In this document: piece after piece, positions 1 through 47,828 of the stretch
How the letters are laid out: every line of letters starts with the position of its first letter
How positions within the stretch are numbered: the first letter of the stretch is position 1
Assembly: GCF_003073045.1 (NCBI RefSeq)
Contig: NC_037593.1
Coordinates: 12,222,735 to 12,286,734 of the forward strand
Source of the DNA: Pomacea canaliculata
Taxonomy: Eukaryota; Mollusca; Gastropoda; Architaenioglossa; Ampullariidae
Length of the DNA stretch: 64,000 nucleotides
Direction of reading: 5' to 3'
Notes under the pieces: model-generated
Told to the model about the DNA's origin: nothing
Seen by the model: only the letters and a program-made list of their open reading frames with translations
The model's database searches: none
Translations under genes and position numbers: made by a program

Positions 1-3000
1 GGAACCTCTGTCCTCGCCGTGAGAGCTGCAGCTGCAGACGTCTTTAGGTGTGGCGCCCTGCACGGTCTGCACGTGAGGCTTGTGGATGAGGCTCGGACAG
101 CAGTACGTCACCTTCACGTTGTTGGTTGTTGTCACGACCGTGGTGTTGATCCCCACAGGGCAGTCGCCGTCGGTCAAGCACCCTGCAATGGTAGCAGGAA
201 GAAAAGACATGACGGGACATGATCCCCCGGCCTGTAACATTTACCTTGGCAGTCCACACAGTGTCACTACTTTTCTAATGGACTGCTGACTCCGCTCACG
301 TGACCTACCAAAAAAGTTCCTTCTGGAAAGAGATACTAATGATGTCCGGCTTTGCTTCTGGTTTGTATGGGTGACTTATCTGTCCAAACCTGATTCAGGT
401 TCAAGTCGTGTGTGTGAGTGAGTATCTCACCATGGATGTGTATAGGTGGACTGCTGACTGCCAAGACCAACGTTTAGCCTCTTGCGAAGTTCTCCGCTAT
501 TAATCTCGGCGAGCCTAAACAAAGAATGGGACTAAACCGGAAGCTTTGTAGTCTCATGCCTCGTTTTAGTAGTTAATCTGAAATGTGAATAAACCGGAAG
601 CTTTGTCGTGTTGTGCCTCGTTTGTGTAACAGGCTGGACATCACTCACTCTGTTCTGTGAAGGGAGCTGGCTCCTGGTAAAGTCCGCACCGCCCGCCCCA
701 GAAGTCGTTAGTGCACGTGCATGCGGTGACGACGGGTGGGTCCAGGTACTTGGTGTGGATACCCCGGCTGTTGTAGCAGCAAAATACGTTGTCTCGCCTG
801 CTGCCACACTTGAGACTGGGGGAATCGTCACAGAGGGCGTTGTATAGACACGCCTCTCCTGCAAAGCAAAACACCTTTGTACATGGAACTGACTGACAAG
901 CTTGCGGTGGAGCTCTGCAGAGTCGGTGAATTATGAAAGAAACCATCAGGAAAAAAATGATAAACTGAATTTACACGACGACCATTACTAGAGAAACAGA
1001 GTATAGAAACACAAACGAATGATTGAGATAAACACGAGTTCTTAAGAAGTACAAACATATTTTGTGAGGCTTACCTGAAGAGTTGTAATCTCCAGTCAAG
1101 GGAGGAGTGTAGGCACCTGGAGGGATGACAGGGGCAGTGTTTCCCGGACACCTACACCCACGGTAGATGACTTCACCGAAACTGGCAACGTTCATGGAGA
1201 TACTGTTGGAGCAGCAATAGGGCCTACTTTTCATCAGGCTATTAGTCATGTCACGGCAACTCTCTGTGCCGTACGTACAACTGTGACCTTTACAAAAAGA
1301 AAACAGGTTTTAAACGGGTATCAGTCACCCCTGTGTTTCACTCAGCAGGCCTGATGAGAGGATGGGGTGGACAGAGGAGGATGCTGTACAATGATGATAG
1401 TATTAGAGACTAGTGTCAGTCATCCGACCACTATACATAATGCGTACACGCAAAACCACTATAGGCTTGCGACAGTGAACACTACAACACAACTGGCCAA
1501 TACCTGAAGGGGTGCAAGCATCATACAGCTGCAACAAGACTACTGTATTAACTCAAGCCATGTAGACATACCCAAAAAGCAAATTTTCTCATTTCTGCAT
1601 CATCAAATAAAAAGTTATAGTATTAACTCGTAAACAAAGCCATATAATGCCAGCAGATTAGTGCCAACAACAACAGAACATTTAACAATGAGAGTCGGGG
1701 TAGAAGTGGACGTGGAGAACATTTCAAGAATGATTGTCGTCAACGACTCATTCGCCTCCTTCGAAGAAGGAACCAATAGTTCTCATGCAAACTCACTTGA
1801 AGAGTTGTGCCCCCTTTTCGAGGATTTTTTCCGACATTCACAGCCATGGTAGTCGGTGGGGTCGTAGGGATTGGAAGCAATGTGCAAAGAATGACCGCGA
1901 GGACAGCAGAAAGTGTCCTTCCTCGTGTAGGTTCTGCTCGCACCACCACAATCTTCGTCCCCGTTTAGGCACATGCGACCTAAAGGAAAGAAAAAAAAAG
2001 AAAAAAACAATAATTTGTTCCCCCAGTGTCGGTTATGGGGAAGACTGAGCAGTATTCACGAATGACATGACATCAGAGATCAAACGTTGGAGATTACAAT
2101 CTACTTTGTTACTTTTCTACTCTCATCCGTGGATTACAGTTAACCCTTCTCCATTATCCCTCATTTGTCCTTTTTTGCCCCTATCCACGACTCCATTTTC
2201 TGTAACCGCTTTCTGTAGGATAAAGGAGGATACAAACGTTTCGTAAACAAACAACTCAGACCTAAGAGCGGCCGCACGAATTACTGCATTCTTCTCTGGA
2301 GTGATGCTTCCTGTTTGTATTAGCTGCTCTTGTGATACTCGGTGACTGTGCTTCCGTTGGACCTTGACACGCAGATCCGACAACAAGGAGACGGATGCTC
2401 GTAAACATTACAGGTCGGCAGTCTGTCTGCAGGCTTATGATGCTATGTTCATAAATTATTTTTATTAAACTAGCCCTAAATAGGAGCTTGCGATACTGCC
2501 TTTAGTACAAACCCACCATACTAGCCTACATGAAATGCTTGTAACACTAGTTGGAGTTACAAGACGGCGTTACAAGCTTAAGATACAAACTGAAATATGA
2601 GCTAGCAGATGTGTCTGATATACAGGTCTGCATTATAGTCAGATTTTAATGTACTTTGTACTTCAAAACAACGTTTTTGCGGGTTTTTTCTGTGATTTGC
2701 ACTGAAGATTTTCACATCACATTGGATCATAGTCTGTCACATGACATCGTCAGCCTCCTGACTAAAGGACGGACGTTGCCAGGATTTTTATTGCCAGTGG
2801 CTGTTGAAATCCTTGCGACTACCTCTTACCGTCATTCATAGTTGTATCGGCCCACATTTTCATCTCTTCATCCTCAGGCTGGCACTCGCAGGTGCCATCA
2901 ACCTTCACCTTTGGCGATCCAGTGACGTCACTGCAGCAGTACGTCACGCCTCCAATGGTCTCTTTGTTCACGGAGTTACTACACGCATCACCTGTCAGAC

Positions 3001-3512
3001 AGCCCTGACTCGCAGCGGCACCTGCACAATATTTGTACCACGCATACGTCGGTCTTCACACACGACAACGTCCACACAACAGCAAAACCGATGCAGCGAC
3101 TGTGCTGCGTGCTACGACTTGCAATGCGTGAGAGAGGTAACGGTTGTCTGTGGGAGACTAACACTAGTGCAATGTCATTGTTCACACAAGAATTTGAATG
3201 AATAAAGGACGATTTTTCTTTGATTGTTATCTTCTTACTGGGATATAAAAGCAGATGCGTGTTTGTTTGTTTATTTGTTTGTTGGTGGTTGGTTGGTTGC
3301 TAGAATACATCGACTCCATGGTATACACGAGTTAGACATAACTGCTGCTCTCATACTGTCGTCTGACATGTTTTAAACATCCCGATTCAAATGTGACTGT
3401 GACGTCATAAACCCAACGTTCTACTCTATGAGTTTTGACGTCACAATGTTCGCTTCTCCTTACTTGCAATCATAGCAACTGCTGTGCACAGCGCAACACA
3501 AGTGGCGGCCAT
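1..3512 (-). CDS. G1: secreted multi-module cysteine-rich protein, partial (3' end off the window)
   Basis: CDS exons on the minus strand: signal peptide 3512-3464, module A 3021-2830, shortened B 1979-1797, full B 1287-1075, C 858-649, A' 182-1 (cut by the window edge). All visible introns are GT-AG in phase 1, and every complete internal exon is a multiple of three (192, 183, 213 and 210 nt). The start was chosen because the ATG at 3512 opens a hydrophobic leader (MAATCVALCTAVAMIA), has G at -3 and +4, and ends in phase 1. A, both B and A' carry six Cys (C, C, CC, CxC); C carries eight. The shortened B lacks the Pro-rich APV-PPGAY stretch but keeps all six Cys and a GTGAGT donor, so two B modules may be used in series or alternatively. 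A' is very like that of G2. Family not recognised; function unknown. By analogy with G2, B' and C' exons should lie to the left of the window. Confidence 0.8.
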
Positions 3513-3524
3513 GTCGTAGAAGGT

Positions 3525-5907: not shown

Positions 5908-8900
5908 AGAGGGGCTGGAAGGCAGGGCTGGGGATTCTGGCATGGCACCTCCCCCATCGCCAGGTCCAGAGCACCAACCTGGCTGGAAGGCAGGGCTGGG
6001 GATTCTGGCATGGCACCGTCCCCCATGGCGCCAGGTCCAGAGCACCAGCTGGCTGGAAGGCAGGGCTGGGGATTCTGGCATGGCACCTCCCCCATCGCCA
6101 GGTCCAGAGCACCAACCTGGCTGGAAGGCAGGGCTGGGGATTCTGGCATGGCACCTCCCCCATCGCCAGGTCCAGAGCACCAACCTGGCTGGAAGGCAGG
6201 GCTGGGGATTCTGGCATGGCACCTCCCCATCGCCAGGTCCAGAGCACCAACCTGGCTGGAAGGCAGGGCTGGGGATTTTCTGGCATGGCACCTCCCCATC
6301 GCCAGGTCGGCAGAGCAACCAACTGGCTGGATCCCCATCGGGTCAGGCACTCCCCATCGGGCTGGGGAGGGCTTCTGGCATGGCACCTCCCCATGCGCCA
6401 GGTGGGGATTCCATACCTCCCTCGCACCAACCTGGCTGGAAGGCAGGGCTGGGGATTCTGGCATGGCACCTCCCCTCATCACCCATCGCCAGGTCCAGAG
6501 CACCAACCTGGCTGGAAGGCAGGGCTGGGGATTCTGGCATGGCACTCCCCCATCGCCAGGTCAGAGCACCAACCTGGCTGGAAGGCAGGCTGGGGATTCT
6601 GGCATGGCACTCCCCCATCGCCAGGTCCAGAGCACCAACCTGGCTGGAAGGCAGGGCTGGGGATTCTGGCATGGCACCTCCCCATCGCCAGGTCCAGAGC
6701 ACCAACCTGGCTGGAAGGCAGGGCTGGGGATTCTGGCATGGCACCTCCCCCATCGGCAGGTCCAGGCACCACAGGCCTGGCTGGGGGGGGGGGCAGGCTC
6801 AGGGATCTGGCATGGCAGGTCCTCTGGAAGCCTGCTGGCATCGCCAGGTCCAGCACCAACCTGGCTGGAAGGCAGGGCTGGGATTCTGGCATGGCACCCC
6901 CCATCGCCAGTCCAGAGCACAACTGGCTGGAAGGCAGGGCTGGGGATTCTGGCATGGCACCTCCCCCATCGCCAGGTCCAGAGCACCAACCTGGCTGGAA
7001 GGCAGGGCTGGGGATTCTGGCATGGCACCTCCCCCATCGCCAGGTCCAGAGCACCAACCTGGCTGGAAGGCAGGGCTGGGGATTCTGGCATGGCACCTCC
7101 CCATCGCAGGTCCAGAGCACCAACCTGGCTGGAAGGCAGGGCTGGGGATTCTGGCATGGCACCTCCCCCATCGCCAGGTCCAGAGCACCAACCTGGCTGG
7201 AAGGCAGGGCTGGGGATTCGGCATGGCACCTCCCCCATCGCCAGGTCCAGAGCACAACCTGGCTGGAAGGCAGGGCTGGGATTCTGGCATGGCACTCCCC
7301 ATCGCCAGGTCCAGAGCACCAACCTGGCTGGAAGGCAGGGCTGGGGATTCTGGCATGGCACCTCCCCCATCGCCTCCCCAGGTCGCAGAGCACCAACGCT
7401 GCTGGAAGGCAGGGCTGGGGATTCTGGCATGGCACCCTCCCCATCGCCAGGTCCAGAGCACCAACCTGGCTGGAAGGCAGGGCTGGGGATTCTGGCTATG
7501 GCACCTCCCCATCGCCAAGTCCAGAGCACCAACCTGGCTGGAAGGCAGGGCTGGGGATTCTGGCATGGCACCCTCCCCATCAGAGCACAGGCCTTTTGGC
7601 TGGAAGGCAGGGCTGGGGATTCTGGCCATGGCACCTCCCCATCGCCAGGTCCTTGAGAGCACCAACCTGGCTGGTGAAGGCAGGCTGGGGATTCTGGATG
7701 GCACCTCCCCATCGCCAGGTCCAGAGCACCAAAAACTGGCTGGAGAGGCAGGGCTGGGGATTCTGGCATGGCACTCTCCACACCAATCCGCCAGGTCCAG
7801 AGCACCAACCGGCTGGAAGCAGGGCTGGGGATTCTGGCATGGCACTCCCATCGCCAGGTCCAGAGCACCAACCTGGCTGGAAGGCTCAGGGCTGGGGATT
7901 CTGGCATGGACCCTCCCCATCGCCAGGTCCAGAGCACCAACCTGGCTGGAAGGCAGGGCTGGGATTCTGGCATGGCCCTCCCCATCGCCAGGTCCATGAG
8001 CAGTACCAACCTGGCTGGAAGGCAGGGCTGGGATTCCCTGGCATGGCACCTCCCCATCGCAAGTCCAGAGCACCAACCTGGCTGGAAGGCAGGGCTGGGG
8101 ATTCTGGCAGCTGGCAAACTCCCCCATCGCCAGGTCAGAGCACAACCTGGCTGGAAGGCAGGGCTGGGGGATTCTGGCATGGCACGCTCCCCCATCGCCA
8201 GGTCCCAGAGCACCCAACTGGCTGGCTGAAGCGCAGGCGCTGGGGACTTGAAAGCCAGGCTTTCAGATCACCAAACTGGCTGGAAAGGCAGGCTGGGGAT
8301 TCTCGGCTGGCCACCCCCCATCCGCCCAAGGTCCCAGAGCACCCCAACTCTGGGCCTGGAAAGGCAGCACGCCCGGGCGGGATTTGGCATGGCAACCTCC
8401 CATCGCAGGTGCACCACCTGCTGGAAGCGGGCTTGGGGATTCTGGCATGGCCCTCCCCATCGCCAGGTCAAACACCAATGGAAGGCAGGGCTTGGGGATG
8501 CTGGCTGCACATCTCCCATCGCAGGTCAGGAGCACCAACCCTGCCTGAAGCAGGCTGGGCTTCTGGCAATGCACCTCCATCCGCCATCAAGAGCACCAAC
8601 TGCTGGAAGGCAGGCGCTGGGGTCGGTATGGCCACCATCCTCATCGCCAGGTCAGCAGCACACCTGGCTGCAACATGGGCTGGGGAATTCTGGCATGGCA
8701 CCTCCCCCATCGCAGGTCCAGAAGAACACCTCGGCTGGAACCGGCAGGGCTGGGGATTCTGGCATGGCAACTCCCATCGCAGGTCCAGAGCACCAAACCT
8801 GCCTGGAAGGCAGGGCTGGGGATTCTGGCATGGCACTCCCCCATGCCAGGTCCAGAGGCACAAACCTGGCTGGAGGCAGGGGCTGGGGATTCTGGCTGGC

Positions 8901-18718: not shown

Positions 18719-21700
18719 TTAACGTCCAAGGCAGTACAGCGCCATGAGCAGCAGGCACAGGACGCCAGAGGGCGTGACGTGAGATGACGTAGAAACAGGA
18801 AATAGTTTTCCTGCGCAGAACTCGCCCAGACGGTCGTTAGTGCAAGTGCACGATGTAATCCTGTCGTTCAGGGTATCCGTGTACATACCCCGGCTGCCAT
18901 AGCAACAAAAGGAGACGTCAGATGCCTCGCACTTGAGGCTTGGATGGTCGTCACACCCAGAATTGTAAGAACAAGCCTCACCTGAAAACAATACCTCAGA
19001 ATGTTATTCAGAACCATCACTGCTTCTTGCTTGATCTTAAGAAACCAGGGACCAACAGGACCTAAGACCATGATTGGCTGCATTGGGACAGTTTGAACTA
19101 ATGTACCTGTGGAGTTGTAGAAGCCCGCCTCCGGCACAGCGTAGGCGCCATGTTCTGGGTGGGGAACCCGGGTGTTGGCGCACCGGCACCCGATAGATTC
19201 GTAGCTCTCCTGCTCGTAGGCGGCGAAGTAGTAGGTGGTGTTAGGTGTTCGACAACACAGCGACAGAACCTTGTTGGTGCTGGTGTCGTAGTTCCTATAA
19301 AACGTGAGCTTCGACGACAACAGTTCGCAGGCAGATCCGCTCTCGCACCAACGACCTGAGTGAACACAACAACAAAGAGGTCAAACCGTACATACGGGTG
19401 TGGCTCACCTGTCTATTCACGATATCCCTTCACACGCCCAACTATTCATTCATTTATAGTCTTACCATAGTCTTTCGTTAGCTCGGCCCACTGAATGGTC
19501 TTGACTGTCGGGGAACCTTCCTCGTCGTGAGAACTGCAGCTGCAGATGTCTTTAGGTGTAGCGCCCTGCACGGTCTGCACGTGGGGCTCGTGTATGAGGC
19601 TCGGACAGCAGTACGTCACTGTCACGTTCTGGGCACCGCTCTTGACAACCGCCGTCTTGGCTCCTACTGGACACGCGGCGTCCTTCAGGCACCCTGTGAC
19701 GTAGCAAGAAAAACACAAAAGTGAAGTGTGACGCGATGCCGAGATATAAATATTCATACAGCTGCAAACACACCCACACAGTGTCTACATACAGTGTCTA
19801 CATTTACACAGAGTAGATAGCATACAGTATGCACTCTCACCCACCCACCTATCCGCCTTACCCACCCACCTATCCACCTAACCCACCCACCTATCCACAC
19901 ACAAAAGTGAAAAAAAATCTCCTCACTCTGTTCCAAGGCGGGAACGGACTTCACATCGTCGTCGCAGCGCTCCCCCCGGAACTCGTTGCTGCACGTGCAG
20001 GCCGTGGTGGTGGCGTTGAGGTTGGTGGTGTGGATGCCGCGGCTGTTGTAGCAGCAGTAGACGCCCCGGTGACCCTCACACTTGAGGCTGGGGTTGTCGT
20101 CACACAGGGCTTCATACAGACACGCCTCGCCTGCAGTCACAACAATGAGGTCAACGACAATCAGTATCCGCCAGGGCCCTTCCCCATCCCCCACCTCCAC
20201 CTCTTTCTCCTTCTGTACATACTCATCACATCTTAGGTTTCTTATCTTTATGTCCGACACAACACGTGACAAGCCAGTATGCATATTTTCTCTGTCAAAA
20301 AAACCTAAAGAAATAAAGATATATTATTGCACAAGCAGTTGTGTGTGTGTTTTCTGTGCGTGCGTGTGTAGACGGGAACATCTAGTTGCTACTTGACTTT
20401 TATGACGACCGTTGTGACTGTACTTGTGGTCTTTATGTTGTTCAGTGTCGTTACACCTACGTGCTGTGAAGCCTGTCTCATGCTACACTTTACGTTTCCC
20501 GACGGAAACACAAAAGCAATGGCGTTGAAACTTTTATTGCTATTATTCTTGAACAGTTGTACTAGAGGTGTCGCTTGTCACCATTGCAGTGAGAGGCTCT
20601 GGGTTCAGATCTCGTCTCGGGACACTCTTTGTGACACCTGTCCGCAGGGCTGGGCGTTGTTTTTTTTTTCCCCCTGGTAATCCGGTTTCCTTCTCCCTTC
20701 CTCTCCCACCCTCCCTCAATAGTCCGAAATCATCTCAAGGTGTCAGCACTTTTCTACTAAATAAACCAACCAACCTTTCCCTCTTACGCACACACAAACC
20801 AGCAGGCGAGACAGAAACACACAGAAGCAAACAGGTCAGACACACAGGCTTACACACACACACAGACACACACAGAGCTTTCTCTCTCTTTTCCGCAAAC
20901 ACACAAATCCAGACAGAAATTACTCAGCGGCGATCTGGAGGATAGTGATCTAAAACAACATGTCGGCTACAAACAACAGTCCATTAATAATTTGCGCAGC
21001 TCTCACCTGAAGAGACGTAGCGTTGGGTCAATGGCACGTTGTAGGCGCCAGGTGGCGTTAGTGGCGCCGAGTTGTTCGCACAACGGCAACCCACGTAGTC
21101 GGGGTCAGAGGCGTTGTACATGACGAACTCGATGTTGTCGCTGTTGCGGCAGCAGTACGGCTGCTGTACCGACCCGATCGTCGCATTGAAGTGGGAGCCA
21201 CTGCAGTCCTTTTCGCCGAACAAACACATGCGACCTGAACATGCAAAACAGACATAATAAACACGTGACCTGAACATACAAAACAGTCATAATAAACACG
21301 TGACCTGAACATGCAAAACAGACATAATAAACACGTGACCTGAACACACAAAACAGACATAATAAACACGTGACCTGAACACACAAAACAGACATAATAA
21401 TCACGTGACCTGAACATGCAAAACAGACATAATAAACACGTGACCTGAACATGCAAAACAGACATAATAATCACGTGACCTGAACGTAAAGCAGTCCTAT
21501 AAACACGTGACCTGAACAAGAACGGTCAAATTCAAATTCAACGGTGTAATTCTTTATCATATGAAAAACAGACAACTCCGATTTTATTGCGTGAACTTTC
21601 ACTTCGGTGACCTTAGGTCAGTCAGGATCAAGATCCTTCCGCGCCTCAAACAGCTTTTCAAACCTCACCTTCATCCATGGTGTCGTCAGCCCAGTTCTTC

Positions 21701-21975
21701 AAAGCATCCTTGGTCTGACCAGTCCCGTTGTGCAGACCTTGCGACAGGCATTGACACTGTCCGTCAACCCGCACACTCATCTGTCTGCTGACGTCACTGC
21801 AGCAGTAGGTAACGTTGCCGGTGGTCCTGGTGGCGGTGATGTTGCGGCAGTTGTCGTCTGTCAAACAGTCTTCCGCTGCAGCAGCTCCTGGACATTAACA
21901 TCAGATGAATTCTCGTTGTCATAATCTTCTTGTGGATTATGGCGATAGTGGAAGTGATGATGATGATGGCGTAAG

Positions 21976-22012: not shown

Positions 22013-22299
22013 AGAGATAATTTGTCTAAGAGAGGCACAAACTACAAAAGAAGAAAGTGGGGAACGCCTCACCCTTCTTCATCCATCCAAGACCTATCCC
22101 ATGTCCATGCATGTAACCATAGAAACAAGTTCTATAACATTTCGTGTTCTCGGTACACAACACAATAAAGTTTACATCAAACTAAAGGCCGCATAGTCAT
22201 CTCCCAAGCCATTCTCTCACAAAAGAACCACTCACCTACGACTACAGCAACAACAACAGCCACAGCAGTCACCCACAACGTAGTAAGGATTGCAGTCAT
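18719..22299 (-). CDS. G2: long-form cysteine-rich protein, A-B-C-A'-B'-C' with GPI-like tail
   Basis: Seven coding exons on the minus strand: signal peptide 22299-22236, A 21887-21669, B 21234-21007, C 20130-19927, A' 19693-19466, B' 19355-19107, C' 18981-18719 with TAA stop. The sum is 1,455 nt, 484 residues. Every intron is GT-AG in phase 1 and each module exon is a multiple of three. The leader (MTAILTTLWVTAVAVVVAVVV) is strongly hydrophobic. A is longer than usual (73 residues) but keeps six Cys; the cysteine counts are 6-6-8-6-6-8. The C-terminus has a Ser-rich stretch, then a hydrophobic run (GVLCLLLMALYCLG) ending in Arg, as in a GPI-attachment signal. Introns hold a SINE-like copy, a 35-bp minisatellite and a GAT repeat. 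A' is closest to that of G1. Probably an extracellular, surface-anchored glycoprotein; function unknown. Confidence 0.88.
19838..19899. repeat. Short tandem repeat in G2 intron (CCCACCCACCTATCC unit)
   Basis: Three imperfect copies of a roughly 21-bp unit, containing CCCACCCACCTATCC, in the intron between the C and A' exons of G2. Confidence 0.8.
20560..20776 (+). mobile_element. tRNA-derived SINE-like element in G2 intron 3, antisense to the gene
   Basis: GGGTTCAGATCTCGTCTCGG at about 20,601 resembles a pol III B box (GGTTCAANTCC-like) followed by a SINE body. A homopolymer-rich middle follows, then a 3' end with AAATAAACCAACCAACC, typical of a simple-repeat SINE tail. The A box upstream is unclear, so the 5' end is approximate and may be truncated or diverged. 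It sits between the B and C exons of G2. Confidence 0.5.
21235..21515. repeat. 35-bp minisatellite next to the exon B acceptor of G2
   Basis: About eight tandem copies of a 35-bp unit (ATGCAAAACAGACATAATAA then ACACGTGACCTGAAC), differing by few bases. On the gene strand each unit contains a pyrimidine-rich stretch followed by TTCAG and GTCACGTG, echoing the real 3' splice site of exon B at 21,235. It appears to have grown by duplication of the intron end. Confidence 0.95.
21954..22011. repeat. GAT trinucleotide microsatellite in G2 intron 1
   Basis: About 18 GAT/TGA units with two interruptions, starting 67 bp from the exon A acceptor on the intron side. Confidence 0.95.
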
Positions 22300-25441: not shown

Positions 25442-25527
<86 letters not shown>

Positions 25528-25540
25528 GTGTCTGTCTGTC
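25442..25540. repeat. CTGT tetranucleotide microsatellite just 3' of G3
   Basis: About 24 nearly perfect CTGT units (one GTGT variant near 25,527), starting 18 bp beyond the G3 stop codon. On the transcribed strand this reads ACAG repeats, so it is probably inside the G3 3' UTR. Confidence 0.95.
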
Positions 25541-25557: not shown

Positions 25558-27492
25558 CTAGCCAGCATAATTTCCAAACAGACTGGCAAAAAGCCCGACA
25601 ACCACACACAAGTGCATCGACGGTGTGACCTGAGGTACTTGACCTTTAGCCTGCCCTGTGGTCTGATTTGTCGCCTGAGGTAAGGAGGTGCAGGTACAGA
25701 GGTATCTACGAGTTGTTCCTTCAAAAATTTGCAGGTGTGGCATGCTGCGGAGGTCGGGACAACAGTACGTGACGCCATCAGTCGTGACACTCGTTGGGTT
25801 GTCTCCGGGAGGACAGGCAGCGTTGGTCCAGCACCCTGTGAGGCGACGAGTGGACACGTGACAACGTGACATCTAAATCTTACATCGACGTAATTCTTTA
25901 GCTTTCCTTAGCGCTAAACATTAACTCACAGCATCTTACAATAGCACAACCCCCTTAAAGATGCTGTGCTTCACTGTAGCGCCCAACGAATACCTAAGGA
26001 ATCAGGTGTAAAAACAATTTTTTTAAAGTTTAAATTTCAAAAATGGACGACATACAGACTTACGACTTCCACACACGCACACACACAATTCTGCTCACTT
26101 AGTTGTGTGTTAGGAAGGGACCGTTGGTTGGAGAAGAAGGAGACCAAATATGCCCCCTGAAACTCGTTAGAGCATGTGCAACCCATGGTGCTGTCGTTGA
26201 TGCTTGTGATGGAGACGCCCCGGCTGTTGTAGCAGCAGTAGACGTTGTCGTTCAGCGAAATGATACGGGTGGGGTTGTCGTCACAGAGAGCGCCATACAG
26301 GCACTGCTCACCTGCAGAGTGGAAACACATTGGAAGATAAATTATTGGTGACGTAGCGAGGTACATTTGTGAAGCGCCATAATTAGGTTCTTTTATCTAG
26401 AGGTATGTACATCAAATGTGAGACAAAACTTGACACATTTATTCAATATTTTCCAAACAACCTCTTTCCTTAGAAAAGACGAAGCACGCGCCTTATGTAG
26501 AAGTAATTGCAAAACATTTAATATGACATCATCATAAAACAGGGGTTAGACACAACGGGGAACTAAACACACAACCATCTTTTCATCAAAGCTTTATGTG
26601 TTCCTATTACTTCCCTTAAAAAAAAAATGGTGGAACGCACCGGAAGAAGTGTATTTCCTATTCAGGGGAAAGACGTATGCATCTGGAGGCAGAACAGGGG
26701 CTGGATATCCCCAACACCGGCAGCCCACGGAGTTCGAGTTAGATGTGTTGAAGACGACACTTCTGATGGACTGAGTGTTGGTGCAGGAGAACACCTTTGA
26801 CCCCGCTGTAACCTCTGAACAGCTGACTTCCCCGCTGGGACAAGACTTCTGGGAACACATGCGACCTGAAACACAGCAATGTGGGGTCAGTGTTCTGCCA
26901 ATGCCCTCTGAGACATGAAACGTTATTTTCTCTTGTTTGCTCGTTGTAAGACTAGTTCACAATGCACGTGAGTGAGACACCGCAGTTCTCACCTTTATCC
27001 ATGGTTGTGTCGGCCCAGTCCTTCACTGCCTCATCAGGGGTCAGACATTTGCACGAGTTGTTGATGGTGATGATGGCATTCTTGGTGACGTCGCTACAGT
27101 AGTACGTGACGTTCTGATCAGTCTCATTGCGAGGGATATTGGGGTAGGAGTCTCTTCTCAAACAGTCTTGCCCTGTCGAAAACTCTGGAAATAAACATAA
27201 AAATGATTTTAAAATAGTGATGATAATTGCAGTTGTGGAGTTGGTGATGATGATATGGTGGTGGGGGCGGTGATGATGACGATAATGATGATTAAGATGA
27301 TGATGTTGAGAAAGCTGGACAAGTCATTACATACTTTTGAAAAAGTGACTGGCATTGGACTGGATTATCAAAATCCTTGCGACTCAAATGACGAGGTAGG
27401 CTCAAGACCCCAAGAAGACAACAATACACAGTCTGGGAAAATGTTCACTCACCGATCGACATGACACTCAGCACAATGAAGATGATCGCCAT
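25558..27492 (-). CDS. G3: short-form cysteine-rich protein, A-B-C-A' with GPI-like tail
   Basis: Five coding exons on the minus strand: signal peptide 27492-27453, A 27184-26993, B 26865-26641, C 26311-26099, terminal A' 25835-25558 with TAG stop. The sum is 948 nt, 315 residues; all introns are phase 1. Leader MAIIFIVLSVMSI. After A' the last exon runs on through a Gln/Thr/Gly-rich linker to a hydrophobic end (SMHLCVVVGLFASLF), a likely GPI signal. Cysteines differ from the family: module A lacks the second Cys and the first of the CC pair; module B has Ser for the first Cys of the pair but gains another Cys; module C lacks both the Cys after the CDD segment and the last Cys. Losing cysteines in pairs suggests a maintained fold, not decay. 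The reading frame is intact throughout. Function unknown. Confidence 0.85.
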
Positions 27493-30396: not shown

Positions 30397-32498
30397 CTAG
30401 CCTATGATTTCCGTTGGAGCGCTGCAGCTGCAGATCCAGCTGCGAGTCGTTGCCCCTTCGATAACTTGCACGTGCGGCGCGGTGCGAAGGTCGGGGCAGC
30501 AGTACGTCACGTTTCCACCCGTGCTCGTCACCGCCTCGTCTACGGCGGAGCAGGCGTCGTTAGTCAAGCACCCTGTGATTCGTGACAAGAAGACACGTGA
30601 CAGTGTGATCCAAACTGTAATCTCCACCTGTCATCTTAAATCGGCTTTTAAATCGGCCCAGTCTAAATGTTAAAATAAGCTTTAAAACAATATCCTCTCG
30701 GACACCACCACAACCACCACCACCACCACCGCCGCCGCCACCACCACCACCACCACCACCACCACCACCATGCTTGTCTCACTTTTTTCTGTAACAGGGA
30801 GGGGCTTGAGGACTGGGCTGCACCGCGTGCCCTGGAACTCGTTGCTACACGTGCAGGCCGTGGTGCTGGCGTTGAGGTCTTTGGTGTGGATGCCGCGGCT
30901 GCTGTAGCAGCAGTAGACCGCGTTGTCGTCCTCGCACTTCAGGCTGGGGTTGTCGTCACACAGCGCGTCGTACAGGCACAGCTCACCTGGTGGTGGAGGG
31001 AACAAACACATCGTGACAGGAATTTGCAGACTGGTATCACGTGGTATGGGATTCATGTACTTGCGAGGACTGTCATGAAGTACAACAATACAATACAATA
31101 CAATACAATACAATACAATACAATAACTGATTTTATTTGTCCCAATGGGCAATGTGAGTGGGAGGTGTGCTCTATTTTACTAAAAAAAAAAAAAAAGAAA
31201 AGAAAATCACACTGACGATGCAGTGGAATAGAGATATTAACATTAACAAGAGCAATGAGAGATATGGGCAAGACATTCCTATCCACACCTACAACATCAC
31301 ACACACCGCTGACAGTTCATCTGTGATTGAGCAGCTGGACTGCTGATAAAACAGTAAAACATAGAAGAAACTTCCCTTAAAGAACCTCTTGAATGTGTTT
31401 TCAAAATGATGTTTTTTAACGGATCTAGGTAATAAATCAAAACAAACAGTTGAGGAAGAATCCACCTGAAGAGTTGTACTCGGCAGACAGGGGCACGGCG
31501 TGTGCGCTCAGGGGCAGGACAGGGGCTGGGTTGTGCCTGCATCGGCAACCCACGTAGTAGGAGCTGCCGACGTCCAGCAGCGCCATGAAGCTGAAGGCTC
31601 CGTTGCTGCAGCAGACCTGGGACTGGTCGTTCTGCAGTTTGACAGTCGTGAACCCGTGAGGACAACCCTCGTTTCCAAATGAACACATGCGACCTGCAGG
31701 GAGAACAAACTGAAGATTACTTCTTTCTTCCTTCCGCTGCAAGACAAATAAAAAGGCAGCTTGCTGGTCTCACAGACAGAGCAGCATCCTGGCATCTATA
31801 TTTACTGAGAAACTGTAGGAGAAACTGCAATGAATTTCGCCTTCCGCTATTCCATGTGTATGTTGTATACGTAAATTTAATATCATACAATACAGATTTT
31901 CAGTCTTATGAGAGAAATTAATGTAATTTGCTGCCAGGAAATTACAAGGAAATGTGAACAGTAAAATGTTTAAGATTTTTAAAAAGGAGTGCTCATACTT
32001 TATTAAGTATATAATAACATTTAACATCGATACGAATACAGAAATAGATCATTCAAATCGTTGCGCACTTGCCTCCCTACAAACCGTTTAGTGAATCTTA
32101 CCTTCCCCCATAGTTTCATCAGCCCAGTTCTTCATTCTTGCATTGGCAGAGAGACAAGCACATGAGTTATTCTTCGTGGTTGGTCTGAGAGTAACGTCAC
32201 TGCAGCAGTACGTGGTATTGCCGACTGTTACGTTGTGCGTCACGTTGTGACATGCGTCACCCGTCACACACTCTTGCCCTGCTGAAAACCCTGAAAATAA
32301 ATAAATAGGAAGATAACTAGGGGGATAGATGGAAAGAAGAACAAAGAAAACGAAAGTGGAGCTTCGTTTGAAACATCACAAACACCCGAGGCAGCCATTG
32401 AAGCCAGAAAATCACAAAACCAAAACACAAGGTGTTCACTCACTCAATGACACAGCAAATATTGCGCTCACGGCGATGATAATGATGATGTTAGTCAT
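30397..32498 (-). CDS. G4: short-form cysteine-rich protein, A-B-C-A', no anchor, probably secreted
   Basis: Five coding exons on the minus strand: signal peptide 32498-32444, A 32290-32102, B 31693-31466, C 30986-30783, terminal A' 30572-30397 with TAG stop. The sum is 852 nt, 283 residues; introns are GT-AG and phase 1. Leader MTNIIIIIAVSAIFAVSL. Cysteine counts 6-6-8-6 are canonical. The last exon stops only nine codons after the final Cys (SAPTEIIG), where G3 runs on into a hydrophobic tail. So G4 should be a free secreted protein, unless an alternative 3' exon exists. B lacks the usual PPGAY and reads LPLSAHAVPL instead. The first bases of the C-A' intron run into a TGG repeat on the gene strand. 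Nearest relative by architecture is G3. Function unknown. Confidence 0.85.
30702..30770. repeat. CCA/CAC trinucleotide microsatellite at the G4 exon C donor
   Basis: About 23 CCA-type units with two short CCG interruptions. On the G4 strand it reads (TGG)n and starts about 12 nt into the intron, just after the GTGAGA donor at 30,782. Confidence 0.95.
31081..31127. repeat. Pentanucleotide microsatellite (AATAC)n in G4 intron
   Basis: Eight to nine near-perfect 5-bp units (ATACA) in the intron between the B and C exons of G4. Confidence 0.95.
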
Positions 32499-34313: not shown

Positions 34314-37071
34314 TTAGCCAGTATTGTATCCATAACGACTGGCCAGTAAGCCGATCAGCACCCAAAGACACGCAGTGGTAGTGACCTGAGATGACCCGGA
34401 TATCGAGTACATTGACCCTTCGCACCGCGGGCCTGCGATGTCGTTGGTGCACGTGCACAGCGTGGTCTTGTTGTTCAAGGTGCCCGTATGTAGGCCTCGG
34501 CTGCCATAGCAACACAGTGTAAGTACATAGGATTCACATTTGACACTCGGGGAGTCCAGACACATGGCATTGTAGGAGCAGACCTCGCCTGCAACAACGA
34601 CACCAAGACATACAATATTTCATAAATAAAAAGTTGATTCAATCTGACCTCCTTCGCATCCCATTTCAGCCCACCTCATGAAGTCGAGGTTGACTAGCAT
34701 TCTTACTTTCATTACAGCAAAGATCGCACTGTGGTGAGCAGTCGGGAGGGTTACCTACCTGTGGAGTTGTAGTATCCCACATCAGGAACGACGTAGGCTC
34801 CAGGCTGTGGACCAGGAACCGAGGTGTTGGCGCACCTGCAGCCGATGGACTCGTAGTCTTCTTTGTAGGCGGCGAAGTAGTAGGTGCTGTTAGGATGTCG
34901 ACAGCACAGCGACAACACCTGCCTCGTGTTGGAGTCGTCGTTCTTGTAGAAGGTCAGGCTCGGCGAGAACCCTTGACACACTGACCCGCTCTCACACCAA
35001 CGACCTGAAATGACCGAGAGATCAGTCAAACATCAGGATTTGTAAGTCGAAATATTTGACTGGTTATAAAATGATAACGGACAGACCGATCGACAGACAG
35101 ACAGACAGACCAAGAAAAATAAGTACATGAAAAAGATCCAAGCTCTCACCAAAGCCATTGGTGCTCTTGGCCCAGAGGCGAGTTCTGTCCACAGCAGAGC
35201 CCTCCTGTCCGTGCAGACTGCAACTACAGACGACATGAGGGATTGTTCCTTGGACGACCTGCACGTAGGGGGTGACTAGGAGGTTGGGGCAGCAGTAGGT
35301 CACATCAACATTGTTGGTTCCACCAGCAACAACCGTGGTGTTGGCTCCGGCTGGGCAGGCGGCATTCGTCAAACACCCTGTGACACGGAGAGACGACAGG
35401 TGAGTGTGTGACCTTTATACTAGGACCTATGTTATCCTACCTTGTTCGCTATTTGACTTTAGCAAAATAGGAACTGTACATCTTCCTCTGTTAAACTTAA
35501 CACAAACAAATAAATACATTAAGGCACGCCTACATGCACACACACACACAAACAAACAAATAAATACATGAAGGCACGCCCACATGCACACGCGCGCTTT
35601 CAGTCTCCTCACGTTGTTCCGTGGATGCAACGGGCTTCAGGGTGGCGTTGCACTTCTCGCCCCAGAACTCGTTGCTGCACGTGCAGCCCGTGGTGCTGGC
35701 GTTGAGATTTTTGGTGTAGATGCCGCGGCTGCTGTAGCAGCAGTAGACTACGTTGTCGCCCTGACACTTGAGGCTGGGTACATCGTCACACAGCGCGTCG
35801 TACAGGCACGGCTCACCTGGGAAGAAGAAGAGACACTACCAACATGTAACATGAGACTAAACTCGTCTGTGTGGTGTAATGGATCTACAAATGTATGAAC
35901 TTTCACTAAAAAAAAGATCCGCGATAGCAATTTTGTTTTCATGAAAATCACCCAAACAAGTAGAGAATCGACTCTAACGACTGTACCGACTCCAACAAAA
36001 GTTCGACAGGCAATGCCTTTGTGTGCAATTTCATGAAGACGACAGGGCGAGTGTGGAGCTCAGTGTGTATTGATAAGGATTCGTGACGAAAAAAAAAATG
36101 GACTTAATGAAGAGTTTTCTGTTGTGTACAGACCAATACCGTTACTGCCTAACAACAGTCCAAACTGACAGTTTGCGTGGAACTCACCTGAAGAGTTGTA
36201 ATCTCCAGACAAGGGGACGACGTAGGCACCTGGAGGCAGAACCGGTGCTGAGTTGTTGTTGCATCGGCAAATGATATTGTCAGGGAAGCTGAAAACGGAC
36301 TCAGAACTCTTCCAGGAGTTGCTGCAGCAAAACGTAACATTCCAGCTCTTCTGTGAAAGGGTAGTACGAGAATGACCTTTGGGGCACTGGCTTTCTCCAG
36401 TTAAACACATGCGACCTGCAAACAAGACGACCGCAGAATTTCATCTTTCTGTCTGCAGAACATTTGCGCACACTAAAGCTTACATCCTCAATGTCTTTGA
36501 ACGAAATACTTGGAAGACATTGCGAACTTTGACCGGCTCCAGAAGTGAGGGACGTTCGTGCCTCAGTCATGCTTGCGATGCCTTAACCGGAAGTTCCGAA
36601 CTATGGTTTTCTGCGCAAATTTTTAATGTACGTAATTAAAAAAAGTGTTTATGTACCTACGTGCATGTGTGTATATCTATATCTATCTATATCGTTCGTA
36701 TGTTTATGGATATTCATGTAACTGCATATTTAGATTGTGTATGTTTGTGTATTTATGTACAGTATGTGTTTTCGTGGTCGTGTGTACACGTTTGTGTATG
36801 TTTGTGTGCTCTATATTCTGTGTGTGAACACACCTGGTGTGTCAGACACTGCGAGCCTCACCTTCACCCATGGTGTAGTCGGCCCAGTTCTTCGCTCTCG
36901 TAGCAGGAGATACACAATCGCACGAGCTGTTAAGAAACCGGCTGGGCCACCTGGTGTCGTCACTGCAGCAGTACGTCACGTTATCTACAGTGTAATTATG
37001 CGTAGCGTTGTAGCATACATCACCTGACAGACAATCTTGCCCTATTGAAAACCCTGGAATGATAATAAAGA

Positions 37072-37121: not shown

Positions 37122-37365
37122 CACTCATTCATTTTGATGACATCAAACAGACATGCAGAGAAGGGAAAATATGTAAAACTTATGTAAAGTTTCAGATTGA
37201 ATATATCGGACATGCCAAATCCTGGCTCCAACCATACGCGGAATACAACCAAATATTTAATCTCGTTATTTAAAGAAGACAAAATAAAAAAATAAATACA
37301 ACTTTGCACTTACTCATCGACAGAGCAAACACTGCACACAGAGCAATGATGACAGTGACGGCCAT
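34314..37365 (-). CDS. G5: long-form cysteine-rich protein, A-B-C-A'-B'-C' with hydrophobic tail
   Basis: Seven coding exons on the minus strand: signal peptide 37365-37314, A 37053-36862, B 36415-36188, C 35816-35613, A' 35377-35150, B' 35004-34759, C' 34588-34314 with TAA stop. The sum is 1,425 nt, 474 residues, all introns phase 1 with good donors. Leader MAVTVIIALCAVFALSM. Cysteine counts are exactly 6-6-8-6-6-8, making this the cleanest member. Typical motifs: K-N-W-A-D-Y-T-M-G-E-G at the end of A, P-P-G-A-Y-V-V-P-L in B, C-T-C-S-N-E-F-W-G-E-K-C in C. After C' comes SISGSSQ, then a moderately hydrophobic run (ACLWVLIGLLAS) and a short polar end: a probable GPI signal, though weaker than in G2. 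Very close to G6 in C'. Function unknown. Confidence 0.9.
37073..37121. repeat. CAT trinucleotide microsatellite in G5 intron 1
   Basis: About 16 uninterrupted CAT units, about 20 nt from the exon A acceptor of G5, between the likely branch region and upstream intron. Confidence 0.97.
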
Positions 37366-41278: not shown

Positions 41279-44200
41279 CTAGTCATTATTGTATCCACTG
41301 TATCCAAGGAGAAAGGTCACTAGCCCTGCCAGTCCCCACATGCCGGCGGTCGCTGTAATCTGAGATGACCCGGAAATCGAATACATTGACCCCTCGCACC
41401 GCGGGCCTGCGATGTCGTTTGTGCACGTACAGGATGGGGTGTTGTTCTTCAGGCTACCCGTATGTATGCCACGGCTGCCATAGCAACACAACGTAAGTTG
41501 AGTTGATTCACATTTGACGCTGGGGTAGTCGTCACACTTGGCATTGTAGGAACAGACCTCGCCTACAGAAGGAAAAAGACACAAGTTTATTGAAAAATAC
41601 AGGTTAGATCAATAAACTACCCTCGCCTTGTTTACCTTGAGCTATCCTAACCCATAAATCCTAAATATTGCACAACTGCAGCTCTTGGTTTTAGTTTTCA
41701 GAAGGTGACCGACTTTTACTTCGGAGTGGGTTAGAAAAAGGCGGCAGAACATGTGGGGCCAATTGTATAACAAATTTGTAATTTTTAACAATTTTAGGGT
41801 AAGGCCTAAATCTAGTTAGTTAAAACAATTATATAAAGACCTTTTGAAACATGTCAGAGAAGAAAATCTCCAGCAGAACCCCTACACCACTGCCTTCCCT
41901 GCCGTACATGCATATTCCTCCTCGCCAATGTTCTCTCCATCTTGAAGTCAAAGACTCAGGCTCTCAATCTGTCTCTCGCAGAAGCTCAGTGGACAAGGAG
42001 TGGGGTGGCCTACCTGTGGAGTTGTAGTACCCAGCATCCGGCACAACGTAGGCGCCAGGCTCTGTCCAGGGAACCCAGGTCTTGGTGCATCGGCAGCCAA
42101 TGGAGTCGTAGTCGTCCTTGTAGGCGGTGAAGTAGCAGGTGCTTTTGGGTTTCCGACAACACAGCGACAGGGTCTCCACGGTGCTGGAGTTGTCACCCTT
42201 GTAAAATGTCAGGCTCGAGGAGAACTGTTCGCAGACTGACCCGCTCTCACACCAACGGCCTGACATGAGAAAGACCGATCATGAATCAACCTTCCCTTGA
42301 TTCGTTGTGCGGAATTCTCACAACCCACTCTCACACGCGATCGGCCCTAAAATTATGATGGCACAGTCAGATGAAAAAAGGCAGAGACATAAAAATACTT
42401 TTTTAGAAAAAAGAAAGACAAAGACTGGCATCAGTCATGCAGTCAGGATGGGGCAGCGTTATGTTTTCGAGCGTTCCAGAATAATAATCACACGCGTTCG
42501 TTCTTGAAAAAGCACATCCCTACCATAGTTGCTGGTGAGGGCGGCCCACATTCGAACTTTGTCTTCAGTGGACCCTTCCTGTCCGTGCAGACTGCAAGTG
42601 CAGATGACTAGAGGAGTAGCTCCGCGAACAACTTGCACGTAGGGCGTGACCTGCAGGTCGGGACAACAGTAGGTCACGTTCACGTTGCTGGTACCGCTCG
42701 TGACAACTGTCATGTTGGCTCCGGCCGGACAGGCAGCGTCCTTCAGGCAACCTGTGATATCAACCCAGATCTGACCTTTATCTATTAACTTCTTTAATGT
42801 TCTTTAATTAATGTTCTTTAATTACCCATTTACTACAGACAGATAAAAGTTACATATGCAGAAGGAGCGGATGTGAAAAACGACAAAGTTAACCCCTCGT
42901 TAACTCTGTATTGGGACTTCGAGTTCAAAGCGACTCTGTAAAAGCTTTGTCTTGTGTCCGCGGCAACTGTATTTAATTTAGTGACCAGGGCTGTGTTCTT
43001 GAACCTTCAACGACTGTTGTTACCTTGGGAGTACACGTTCACAAACAGTTTTCCTCCCTCAAGTTCCGGATGTTGATTTCAGGAGAAAAAACTCAATACT
43101 AGCTCATGACTGAAATTCAAAGTATTTAGCTTTTTGAGACTTGTAATAAGTAATTTTTTGTACAATTAGCAGCTTGCGTGTTGAACTGAATTTAGAATTA
43201 TTAGCTAACTTAAAGGGATTCACTGTCCTTAGTGTTTATGGGAAAGTGAACTTTAGTTTGTTTTAAAATTTGTTCAGTGAGTATGCTTTTCTTTAATCCT
43301 TATGTTGTATCTGTACTGAAGTAAGCATAACCTGCAGAGACCAATGTAGTTTTGTCTTGTTTTAGAACAAAAGAACACGAAAAAGTCTGGATAAATGCGT
43401 GGGTGGAGTTAGTTCACATGGGAGTATCCTTGACAAATCACCCAACACAGAAAGAGGTAAAACTCGCTACGTAACATTTGTACACAAATACAAATAAAGA
43501 ACACACTGTCCTAGCTCTCCTAATGGCCAAGGCTTTCACCTAAGTGTCTCCATGTACAATCATGACGTCAGTGTTGATGACCTCTTTCTGTGCAAGGTGA
43601 TGTTTGTAGGCGTGTGTCTCGAGAACCCAATGTGGTTATTCACCCAGAGTTTGGGAAAAAGTAAGCTAGTACCCTATACCGAGCTTTACCTTGTCATTAA
43701 AAACGATTTTGTACCCACTAGATCTTCAAGTTCTTCTGATCACAGACTGGATGCCCCATGTGTGCACTGCACTAAGAAACAAAAATGTATGTGCATAGAC
43801 AAGTTCGAGTCTTCTTACTTTGTTCGGTGGATGGGACGGGCTGGACATTGGAGGCGCACCTGTCGCCCCAAAAGTCGTTGCTGCACGTGCAGCCCGTAGT
43901 GTTGTCCTGGAGGTTTTTGGTGTGGATGCCGCGGCTGTTGTAGCAGCAGTAGACCGCGTTGTCCCCCTCACACTTCAGGCTGGGGTTGTCGTCACATAAA
44001 GCGCCATACAGACACAGTTCACCTGCAATGTGCCAAGAGTTTTTCTAGAAAATTTGCAGGCCAGCTGGACCCAGTGTGGACGGGCGGCAAATGTCGACAT
44101 GTTGACAACTGTCTCCAAGACTTTCTTCCATATTCTCCATAGAAAAACACGAACGTCTTTAAAACTTAGAATCCCCATTCTGAGAATGGTTCTGTTCAAA

Positions 44201-47200
44201 CCAAACCCGAAATACCCAGGGTGTACATCTCCAGCAAAGGAACCCTCTGAACTGATTCCGACAAGAATTATTGAAATACTTACACCACAACCCATGATTG
44301 TTTTCTGAATCCGGTTACCATTGGTTCTGTATTTTGGTAACACATTGCGCAACTAACTCCAAATAAAGAAAAGAAAAGAAAAGAAAAGAAAAGAAAAAAA
44401 AGAAAAGAAAAGAAAGAAAAGAAAAGAAAAGAAAAGAAAAGAAAAAAACAAAATTTCAGAGTGATTACACAACTAGCTGCTGGTCATGTAGATTTGCTTC
44501 TTCCTAACACCTTTAGTATAAGAACAGAATCAAAACGAGTAAATAAGAGTGAAGGACTGGAGGATGAAAGAAGGAATGAGGGTTAGGCGTAAGTCGAAGA
44601 AGGTTGGGGATGAGGGTGGCGAGGGCAGAGGGTATGGGAGAGAAAAAAATTAGCGATGGTGACGACAGTTAATCCCATCTTGTCGGATCATGCAAATAAT
44701 GTCCACCAGAATCAATAAAAATTGTTTATGTGAGGAAAACTGTTGAAACACCGGCCTGAGTCAATCGGCTTTAAGCTGAATTACGAGTTCGAACTGTAAA
44801 CAAACATCTGCTGCACCTGGGGGAATTTCGAACCACAGCTGTTTATATTGTGAAAAAAATCTGTCGACGAGATTTCTTGTTTGTTTGCCAGGAATTTTAA
44901 ATTTTGAGGTTGTTTATTAAGCACTCAGGAAAACATGCTTAACAAAACAGATATCAAAGTTCTCTAAAAAAACTAAATAGCTGAAAGACTAGGCCACCTG
45001 TACTTGAGGGTACAAAAATGTGAGTGTTATTCAATACAAATAAATCTTATGATCTGAGATTTTAAAAAAAAAATATGAGACACAGCAGCAGCGAGGGCTT
45101 GCCGTTGAGACTGGTCTTGAGGCCTGACAAGCAGGTAAAGACATGGGGCGACCTGTCCATTCCTTCAGTATAGTCAGCCGCTGGCTTTTTTCTGTTTACC
45201 TCGTAGTCTTCGTCCCTGGAGGACTGTCCTTTGGTGTCATGCCTAGCGAGGTATCCGAATCATGCCAGAAGCATACCAGAAAATCAAACTGAAAACTTTG
45301 GTCCAACCCACCTGAAGAGTTGTACTCTCCGGACGGTGGGACGACGTAAGCGCCTGGAGGTGAGGTCGGAGATGGGTGGTTCATACATCGACAACCCACG
45401 TAGTCAGGGGCCGTGGTGTTGATGACGGTAACTACGCAGTAGCGGGCGTTGGGGCAGCAGTACACCAGGGGCTGGGAGTTAATCATCAGACTGAGTGGCA
45501 CACCGTGACAAGAGTCGTTGCCAAACAAACACATGCGACCTGTGAACATGACAGTTGGAGTGTGACTTAACGCTCTTTCTCTCCGTCAGGCGAGTGAACA
45601 AAACAGTTAATGCAGACCATAAGCAAAGTAATATAGCCTGGAAGTGGAAAAATGCGGCCCATAAACAAAGTTACACAATCCACAACAAAAATAATGCTGT
45701 CCGAAAACAAAGTAATACAGGTTGTATGCAAAATGTCCTTAACCCCACTTTGCCACAGTGATTCAAGATAATGTAAAATAATATTATTACAGGCGATAAA
45801 AATAGATACAAATACAGCAGTTTGTTTTTGAAGTGAAATTCGAGTATGTGTATAGGTTTGTGTACTTGTGTGCAGCGCAGGTTTACCATCAGGAAAGCTT
45901 TGCATCACACGAATGGTGCAATAAGTGATTGGAATGTGGAATAAAATTTAACTAACCAGGCCAGGTGCTGATACTTAAATATCCAATTTTAAGGCTAACT
46001 TTAGATTTAAAGACCTACTAAAAATTACACGTGTTGCTGTACATATTTATTGTTCATTTACAGAATAAACGTACAAAAAGACAGCTTACATGTGAATAAA
46101 ATTCAACTGAGATAGTTCTGTCTCAATAATATGCAACGATTGTGTGATCCTAATGTCCTTAGAAAGTTCTTTGTATCGTTTGTAATGTGACCATTTGTTG
46201 TTGACCAGGCACTACCTGCATTTTTCCAGTTTGTCTATCCTCTGACTTTTAATTTAATTTAATATCGCTCAGCATCACATCCAGAACAGGCTGCATTCGT
46301 TTTGCTGACCAACCATTCCGTGTGAATTTACTAGAAGTAAATTATTAGATCTACACATTTAAACACTGTGTAGTTTAAAAACTGATCTTTAAAATTATTA
46401 TAAATCATTTTTCTGGATTTGTAATTACATATAAACAGGTTTGTGAACAGCATGTAAAAGTGCGGAAACCACCCGAGAATGCTCCGGGGGCTTGGTTGGG
46501 GAGGGAGAATCTGTCGAGAGTAGGTTAAAATTGACATTCTGGGCAAGGAAAGACATCGTTGAGCATGTCATCGTAAAGTTGTTGAATGTGACAGTTGGGG
46601 CAATCCAGCAAGGATCTTTCGCGAATGTTTATCAATGAGTATTTCTGCTACGTGTAAAGGACGGATGTAGAGCGACCATGCACTGCTTATCATCCTCGCA
46701 GTGTGTGATTGAGCGGTCATCACCTTTCTCCATCGTTTCGTCGGCCCACTTCTTTGTTTCTTCTGCAGGCGTCAGACACTCACAGGCCCCTTGTTGAGTC
46801 ACGCTTGGCGATCTCGTGATGTCACTGCAGCAGTACGCGACGTTTCCAACAGTCTGATTAGACGTGGAATGGACGCATGCGTCATCCGTCAAACAATCTT
46901 GCCCAGCTGCCAATCCTGATAGTTAAAAAACAGAGAGACGAGACATTAAAGAACACGCCCAGACAGAGAGGACAAGCAGAAAATCAGTTTAATAGTTCGA
47001 GACTTTAGCGCAGTTTTTACTTCTTTCACTCAGTTGCTTCGTATCAGATGGTCGCCCAACCGTCTCCGGAGGGCACTGGGAAAGCTGGTGTTTTTACGCC
47101 ATCCACCTATGAGGGAATTAATCGCGATTCATAATAATCACTGATTCAGACACCAGATTAACAGCGTGTTTGAGAATGTATTGGTGTCTAGTGCCATCAG

Positions 47201-47828
47201 GCTGCCAAATTGTCCACAGGGACTGAAAACCAAGCAGGGCCTTGGACATGAAATAAGAATGATCCGTTATCCCAGGGGGAAAATATAAGAAGATCAAGGG
47301 CAAACTTACTGTCTCCGTATTTATGAAGGAGTCTTCAGAACCCATGGATTTTGGTTTATATTTAGGGTGTCGTTGCCACTGCTTTATAGCTACATCCCTA
47401 TGGTATTAACAACATGCGCGGATTCTGGAAACGGCTTTGCGGCTATGAAGTCAAGACGTTTGCCTTTGATTTACTCATTTATTGTACCGAAGCAACGACT
47501 TACCCTTGCTTCATAACGACTACTCATTTCTCTAGGCGTAAAACTGAAGGCAGCGATAAGTAGATGACTTTGGGTCCATAGCCGAGATTCCTGATAATGG
47601 ACACAGCTGGACGACTTCGGATCACGTGTCGCTGCTTACGTGGCACCACAGGAGTTTGGGTGGGGGGGATAATCTCTTTATGGGATCGCAACGGTCCTTT
47701 CAGGCTGAGAAAGGGAGAAAGCCGCATCAAAACATAAAGCCAGGTGTTCACTCACCTATCGTCACGACAAACGCCATCCACACGGCCCTGCTGACGGCGA
47801 CCATTGTTCTTGTCGCGCCGCGCCGCAT
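41279..47828 (-). CDS. G6: long-form cysteine-rich protein, A-B-C-A'-B'-C' with hydrophobic tail
   Basis: Seven coding exons on the minus strand: signal peptide 47828 (or 47804)-47756, A 46915-46724, B 45539-45312, C 44022-43819, A' 42751-42524, B' 42259-42014, C' 41562-41279. All introns are phase 1. From ATG 47804 (A at -3, G at +4) the protein is 476 residues with leader MVAVSRAVWMAFVVTI. ATG 47828 adds eight mostly basic or polar residues and gives 484. Counts are 6-7-8-6-7-8: B gains a Cys (PNARYC) and B' gains a Cys (STCYF) where relatives have none. The tail after SISGSSQ (AGMWGLAGLVTFLLG) is GPI-like. Introns here are the longest of the cluster (up to about 1.3 kb) and carry an AAAAG microsatellite. 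Closest to G5. Function unknown. Confidence 0.88.
44362..44450. repeat. AAAAG microsatellite in G6 intron
   Basis: Roughly 17 AAAAG-type units starting directly after AAATAAAG in the B-C intron of G6. It may have grown from the A-rich tail of a retroposed sequence. Confidence 0.93.

Follow-up and report, generated by a model that had tools for sequence, protein, structure and literature searches.

The stretch of DNA analysed here, hereafter the window, comprises 64,000 nucleotides of the Pomacea canaliculata genome (C4:12222735-12286734) and holds, from position 1 to 47804 (47828 with an upstream in-frame ATG of gene 1), six cysteine-rich genes arranged head-to-tail on the minus strand. Each of the six opens with a signal exon that is hydrophobic and ends in a phase-1 donor, and the exons after it each encode a single module with two adjacent cysteines (CC). 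An earlier note on this DNA had proposed six minus-strand paralogs built on this exon plan, and both parts of that proposal are borne out. The window contains 31 module exons and the whole cluster 33, gene 6 running over the left edge. Exon boundaries were taken from in-phase AG and GT sites, signal exons were picked as hydrophobic, ATG-initiated and ending in a phase-1 donor, and we infer the exon joining in all models from sequence. In these models, with gene 6 completed beyond the window, the 33 cluster introns are all GT-AG and phase 1, the 27 internal module exons all have lengths divisible by three, and all six genes, when conceptually spliced, read through without an in-frame stop. The predicted proteins of genes 1–6 are 476, 474, 283, 315, 484 and 534 residues long, and each carries 3–14 N-glycosylation sequons (gene 6 counted to the window edge only).

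The modules, one per exon, are designated A to F. Genes 1, 2 and 5 have the order signal-D-B-A-C-E-F-tail, the tail being hydrophobic. Gene 6 has the order signal-D-B-b-A-C-E-F-tail, b being an additional B-class module, and the two shorter genes read signal-D-B-A-C-tail (gene 4) and signal-D-B-A-C with no tail (gene 3). Tailed and untailed forms at one locus had been predicted, and five of the six genes are tailed, all but gene 3.

The chance test was a count of cysteine motifs flanked by an in-phase acceptor and an in-phase donor, with a satellite at 5.9-14.8 kb excluded. The minus strand holds 28 such motifs and the plus strand none, and in local shuffles the same count was 0 in 19 of 20 and 1 in the remaining shuffle. 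A cysteine-pattern scan likewise confines the modules to the minus strand, the plus-strand matches falling in the satellite. The proportion of nonsynonymous differences (pN) is below that of synonymous differences (pS) in all 66 same-type module pairs between genes, with means of 0.32 and 0.58; these pairs omit gene 6 b, E and F and a related gene on chromosome 1, and gene 6 C enters only to the window edge. The ratio of nonsynonymous to synonymous substitution rates (dN/dS) is defined in 62 of the 66 pairs and reaches at most 0.84 (gene 1 A versus gene 4 A). We conclude from the sequence comparisons that the genes are real and maintained by purifying selection, and we regard the gene structure of the six-gene family as near certain.

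The cluster terminates with gene 6 at C4:12221497. It had been expected to continue past the left edge, and gene 6 does extend there with the remainder of its exon C and with its exons E and F, but the array is not open-ended. Over the 18.8 kb beyond it on that side, the pattern scan produced a single match (C4:12210344-12210472), unlike a module. Modules A to F and the chromosome-1 A module served as queries in searches of the genome, 440,159,624 bases in 24 contigs, which found this cluster and one gene on C1, counts that are lower bounds; their remaining matches had E values of 0.7 or worse. The published assembly comprises 440.1 Mb and 14 chromosomes, the longest of 45.4 Mb (PMC6129957). 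The seventh gene, which we refer to as z, is dispersed, lying on another chromosome than the cluster (C1:12068568-12070892, plus strand). It encodes 331 residues, its four introns are all GT-AG and phase 1, and its signal exon is followed by D-, B- and A-class modules in that order (the B module classed from order and tail, not by a search match), a fourth module with eight cysteines and a hydrophobic end. A genome search with the fourth module returned only itself and one match at E=0.5; taking the searches together, matches outside the cluster and z had E values of 0.5-6.4. Upstream of z, open frames at C1:12062014-12062477 resemble reverse-transcriptase fragments, as judged by eye.

The module core is C-x(4-6)-C...CC...C-x-C (n=37 modules, 33 in the cluster and four in z). 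The earlier note treated the modules as separate kinds; instead, we found that they are three classes, A/F, C/D and B/E, of one superfamily. Profile comparison relates A/F to C/D (P=1.8e-6), A/F to B/E (P=2.3e-6) and C/D to B/E (P=6.1e-6), with probabilities of 85-90%; the A/F-C/D alignment extends into tail columns, and the A/F-B/E alignment leaves C-x-C unaligned. Alignment and tree pair D with C, B with E and A with F. In the tree, the C modules form one branch (96/93) nested in a D/C branch (99/96), the E modules form one branch (100/100) joined by gene 5 B (92/78), and A, F and the A module of z form one branch (98/85), within which z A groups with the F modules (99/95). The bootstrap of the tree is unsettled, the z modules zB, zC and zD and gene 6 B have long branches, and the placement of the other B modules, of zC and of the chromosome-1 gene is not settled. 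Our preferred reading of the long genes is an internally duplicated three-module unit, (D-B-A)(C-E-F), with gene 6 as the duplicated triplet plus one further B-class module, and genes 3 and 4 as keeping four modules. Because z A falls with the F modules, the triplet duplication may, tentatively, have preceded the split of z. Across the four long genes, mean identity ranges from 0.39 for B to 0.66 for A.

The six core cysteines are all kept in 35 of the 37 modules, the exceptions being gene 4 D and gene 4 B. The first two are 4-6 residues apart in 36, and gene 4 D lacks the second. The A/F class carries an extra cysteine pair that is wholly present in 11 of the 37 modules, wholly absent in 26 and single in none. 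In gene 4, the A module has lost both extra cysteines and the D module has jointly lost the second and third core cysteines. These losses, each a single case, suggest that the partners in each pair had been disulfide-bonded. Inhibitor cystine knots have cysteines in the order C-C-CC-C-C with knotted 1-4, 2-5 and 3-6 connectivity. That order is found in 35 of the 37 snail modules, but the snail loops span 13-23 residues before and 13-22 after the CC, only one residue lies between the last two cysteines, and the modules repeat within large tailed proteins. The joint loss of core cysteines 2 and 3 in gene 4 D hints, from one case, at 2-3 pairing and against a knot. Both the B and the E module of gene 1 carry an additional cysteine, at similar positions after the CC, and it is a guess that the two might bond across the two triplets of this gene.

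Gene z, like the tailed cluster genes, ends in a hydrophobic tail. The proteins stop within about nine residues after the hydrophobic stretch, with no cytoplasmic domain. At the protein level the resemblance of the gene 4 tail to the F tail of gene 2 was equalled in 0 of 2000 class-preserving shuffles, and likewise for gene 6; there was no match to the z tail (1592 of 2000). DNA alignment of the gene 4 tail scored above shuffles against gene 2 only (27, shuffled maximum 25), and DNA alignment with four C exons also did not exceed the shuffled maxima, the gene 6 C piece being shortened there. In our reading, the last exon of gene 4 arose when a C exon and an F exon were fused, an event that would have eliminated E and the F module while sparing the tail. 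Downstream of the gene 3 stop, inspection by eye in three frames found no encoded tail just after it.

None of the 31 modules in the window has a credible Pfam match at a limit of E<=10, with HMMER filters that discard most matches above about 0.1. A Pfam search with six representative modules likewise gave no match. Pfam and NCBIfam held no credible match to Ly6/uPAR, WAP, sushi or normal EGF, and these were rejected as families for the modules; YmcE, MGA_dom, MerP and other weak matches, one module each and none better than E 0.01, were put down to chance. The proposal that the modules lie outside known families thus stands as far as Pfam goes, but not without qualification, as the A/F class resembles the EGF domain of ErbB ligands. 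EGF-like domains have six cysteines in characteristic order and spacing, bonded 1-3, 2-4 and 5-6. Against solved structures the A/F profile matched the neuregulin-1 EGF domain (E=2.3e-5; 1.3e-4 with a wider alignment of 12 sequences) and Spitz (0.026-0.038), and two column-shuffled A/F controls (8/9 sequences, gene 4 A omitted) gave no EGF match. The first control was flawed, its gap removal having made C-x-C into CC; the second has one loop a residue shorter and leaves C-x-C and the distance to the final cysteine intact, and this one fair control supports a similarity that goes beyond cysteine spacing. These matches speak for the A/F modules being derived EGF domains, the proteins ErbB-pathway ligands or surface decoys, and the other modules more degenerate EGF copies, a reading that we consider unlikely. 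The likeness lies in the rear half of the A/F modules only (C-x-C, then F-x-G-x-x-C). Their second and third cysteines are adjacent whereas those of EGF are separated, they have an added N-terminal C-x5-C, and the D, C, B and E modules lack two of the six EGF cysteine positions. The C/D and B/E profiles found no EGF match among solved structures, and the Pfam matches of the 31 modules include no EGF family; the earlier note was right to set the modules apart from a normal EGF.

Structure prediction of single modules, which had been suggested as a check, was run for A and C and gave mean predicted local distance difference test (pLDDT) values of 71.2 (31 sequences) and 71.5 (28 sequences). The predicted models, whose input alignments overlap, have a common layout of two beta-hairpins, the first ending at the CC and the second at C-x-C, and the module C model adds a C-terminal helix. 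Structure comparison of the two models gave no meaningful match. Among 34 stretches of viral contigs that fit the pattern in a scan with the A/F alignment, there was no relative.

A dispersed gene with the same plan on chromosome 1 suggests an old family, and the genes could belong to one that is conserved in molluscs and annotated elsewhere under another name, with an ordinary known role. We hold this to be quite improbable, since Pfam, NCBIfam and PDB sequence searches returned no family and a literature search of titles and abstract openings, with subscription papers outside it, found no paper naming or describing the family, which is no proof of its being undescribed. The term "undescribed system" in the earlier note goes beyond the data, which speak for a gene family only.

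Ly6/uPAR clusters are tandem arrays with phase-1 exons, GPI-anchored (glycosylphosphatidylinositol) and secreted members and multi-module forms, and their domain starts with C-x2-C. The snail locus shares the tandem array, the phase-1 exons, the multi-module proteins and the tailed and untailed forms, whereas its modules start with C-x(4-6)-C and end with C-x-C. The Guadeloupe Resistance Complex of Biomphalaria likewise encodes, in a snail, a cluster of surface proteins in which no domain is recognised. Grctm6 of that complex is described as a single-pass transmembrane protein with long (>200 amino acids) extracellular and intracellular parts (PMC5310918), unlike the Pomacea proteins, which have no cytoplasmic domain. 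The cluster would resemble either system in role, not in shown ancestry.

Judging from the signal exons, sequons and hydrophobic ends, the proteins are likely extracellular and mostly GPI-anchored. The products would enter the secretory pathway built solely of repeats of one cysteine-rich module, and the modules, putatively disulfide-bonded, would align into an N-glycosylated ectodomain. The hydrophobic tail, which is not followed by a cytoplasmic domain, would be a GPI-attachment signal, the anchor holding the ectodomain at the cell surface. The conserved A/F modules would serve as scaffold and B, the most variable class, as the contact surface for a partner that may be another cell, matrix or a microbe. 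The tailless gene 3 product would be released and could compete for the same partner. This account as a whole, an N-glycosylated, mostly GPI-anchored surface ectodomain that binds a partner through B, is the one we put forward, at somewhat less than an even chance.

Several points weigh against it. The assignment of B as the contact module draws on its variability and on nothing else. None of the 62 defined paralogue pairs has a dN/dS above 1, so the family shows no trace of positive selection such as an arms-race receptor would be expected to undergo. The module A and C models are of moderate confidence only. The protein match of the gene 4 tail is weaker to gene 1 (7 of 2000 shuffles) and unclear to gene 5 (168 of 2000), and its DNA scores against genes 1, 5 and 6 do not exceed the shuffled maxima. 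Finally, the tails of genes 1, 2 and 4 finish in several small or polar residues, which is less typical of GPI signals. Cysteine richness, multiple modules, glycosylation sequons, purifying selection and a tailless form would also suit a structural or protective part in a secreted coat, that of egg, mucus, shell or periostracum, for proteins that are crosslinked by their cysteines and have no recognition role; we think this improbable, since the tails of z and of every cluster gene but gene 3 would be needless for a secreted coat protein.

A bolder proposal, which we regard as rather doubtful, is that the module represents a new class of disulfide-rich domain, which may have branched off from ErbB-type EGF and has cysteines 2-3 fused and an N-terminal loop added, and that it founds a GPI-anchored snail recognition family of duplicated triplets diversifying by exon duplication, exon fusion and paired cysteine gain and loss. 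At present the locus stands as a well-supported gene family. If the family is confirmed, its module would be another cysteine-rich addition to the animal extracellular repertoire, and the family a clear example of modular protein growth, with one-module exons, a triplet that was duplicated, a last exon that is chimeric, and cysteines lost in pairs, which point to possible disulfide partners. A clustered surface family in an invasive snail would also be a sensible place to seek recognition functions.

Table 1. Exons of the six cluster genes. Positions are those of the window unless prefixed with C4.
Gene	Exon	Position	Strand	Remark
1	signal	47756..47804	-	in-frame ATG at 47828 also possible
1	D	46724..46915	-	
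1	B	45312..45539	-	one extra Cys
1	A	43819..44022	-	
1	C	42524..42751	-	
1	E	42014..42259	-	one extra Cys
1	F	41279..41562	-	hydrophobic tail, stop
2	signal	37314..37365	-	
2	D	36862..37053	-	
2	B	36188..36415	-	
2	A	35613..35816	-	
2	C	35150..35377	-	
2	E	34759..35004	-	
2	F	34314..34588	-	hydrophobic tail, stop
3	signal	32444..32498	-	
3	D	32102..32290	-	
3	B	31466..31693	-	
3	A	30783..30986	-	
3	C	30397..30572	-	stop, no hydrophobic tail
4	signal	27453..27492	-	
4	D	26993..27184	-	core Cys 2 and 3 lost
4	B	26641..26865	-	first Cys of CC lost, another gained
4	A	26099..26311	-	extra Cys pair lost
4	C	25558..25835	-	F-type hydrophobic tail, stop (read as chimeric)
5	signal	22236..22299	-	
5	D	21669..21887	-	
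5	B	21007..21234	-	
5	A	19927..20130	-	
5	C	19466..19693	-	
5	E	19107..19355	-	
5	F	18719..18981	-	hydrophobic tail, stop
6	signal	3464..3512	-	
6	D	2830..3021	-	
6	B	1797..1979	-	
6	b	1075..1287	-	second B-class module
6	A	649..858	-	
6	C	1..182	-	on past left edge to C4:12222689
6	E	C4:12222497-12222246	-	outside window
6	F	C4:12221771-12221497	-	tail; outside window

Repeats lie beside several of the genes. A 35-bp tandem repeat of 8.3 copies (window 21232-21518) abuts exon B of gene 5; read on the minus strand, its units close with ttcag, which resembles a splice acceptor and precedes GTCACGTG, so that the intron acceptor of the gene 5 B exon is itself repeated about eight times. Genes 5 and 6 are separated by a satellite of about 8.5 kb (window 5913-14470), made up of 79.5 copies of a GC-rich 67-bp unit, a gap of 100 N (11180-11279) and then TGTTGGC-like and CAACAAC-like sequence, and part of it may be long-read or assembly noise. 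A GTCT microsatellite of 24.8 copies (window 25442-25540) stands just 3' of the gene 4 stop. A tRNA scan with the bacterial code found no tRNA. The cluster is flanked on the left, outside the window, by an Elongin-A-like gene on the plus strand (C4:12207718-12215757; PF08711 Med26, PF06881 Elongin_A), which can serve as a marker of synteny, and on the right by plus-strand exons of a Tribbles pseudokinase (window 60742-61751; Pfam kinase), the last of which has Tribbles homolog 2 as its best PDB match (E=5.3e-55).

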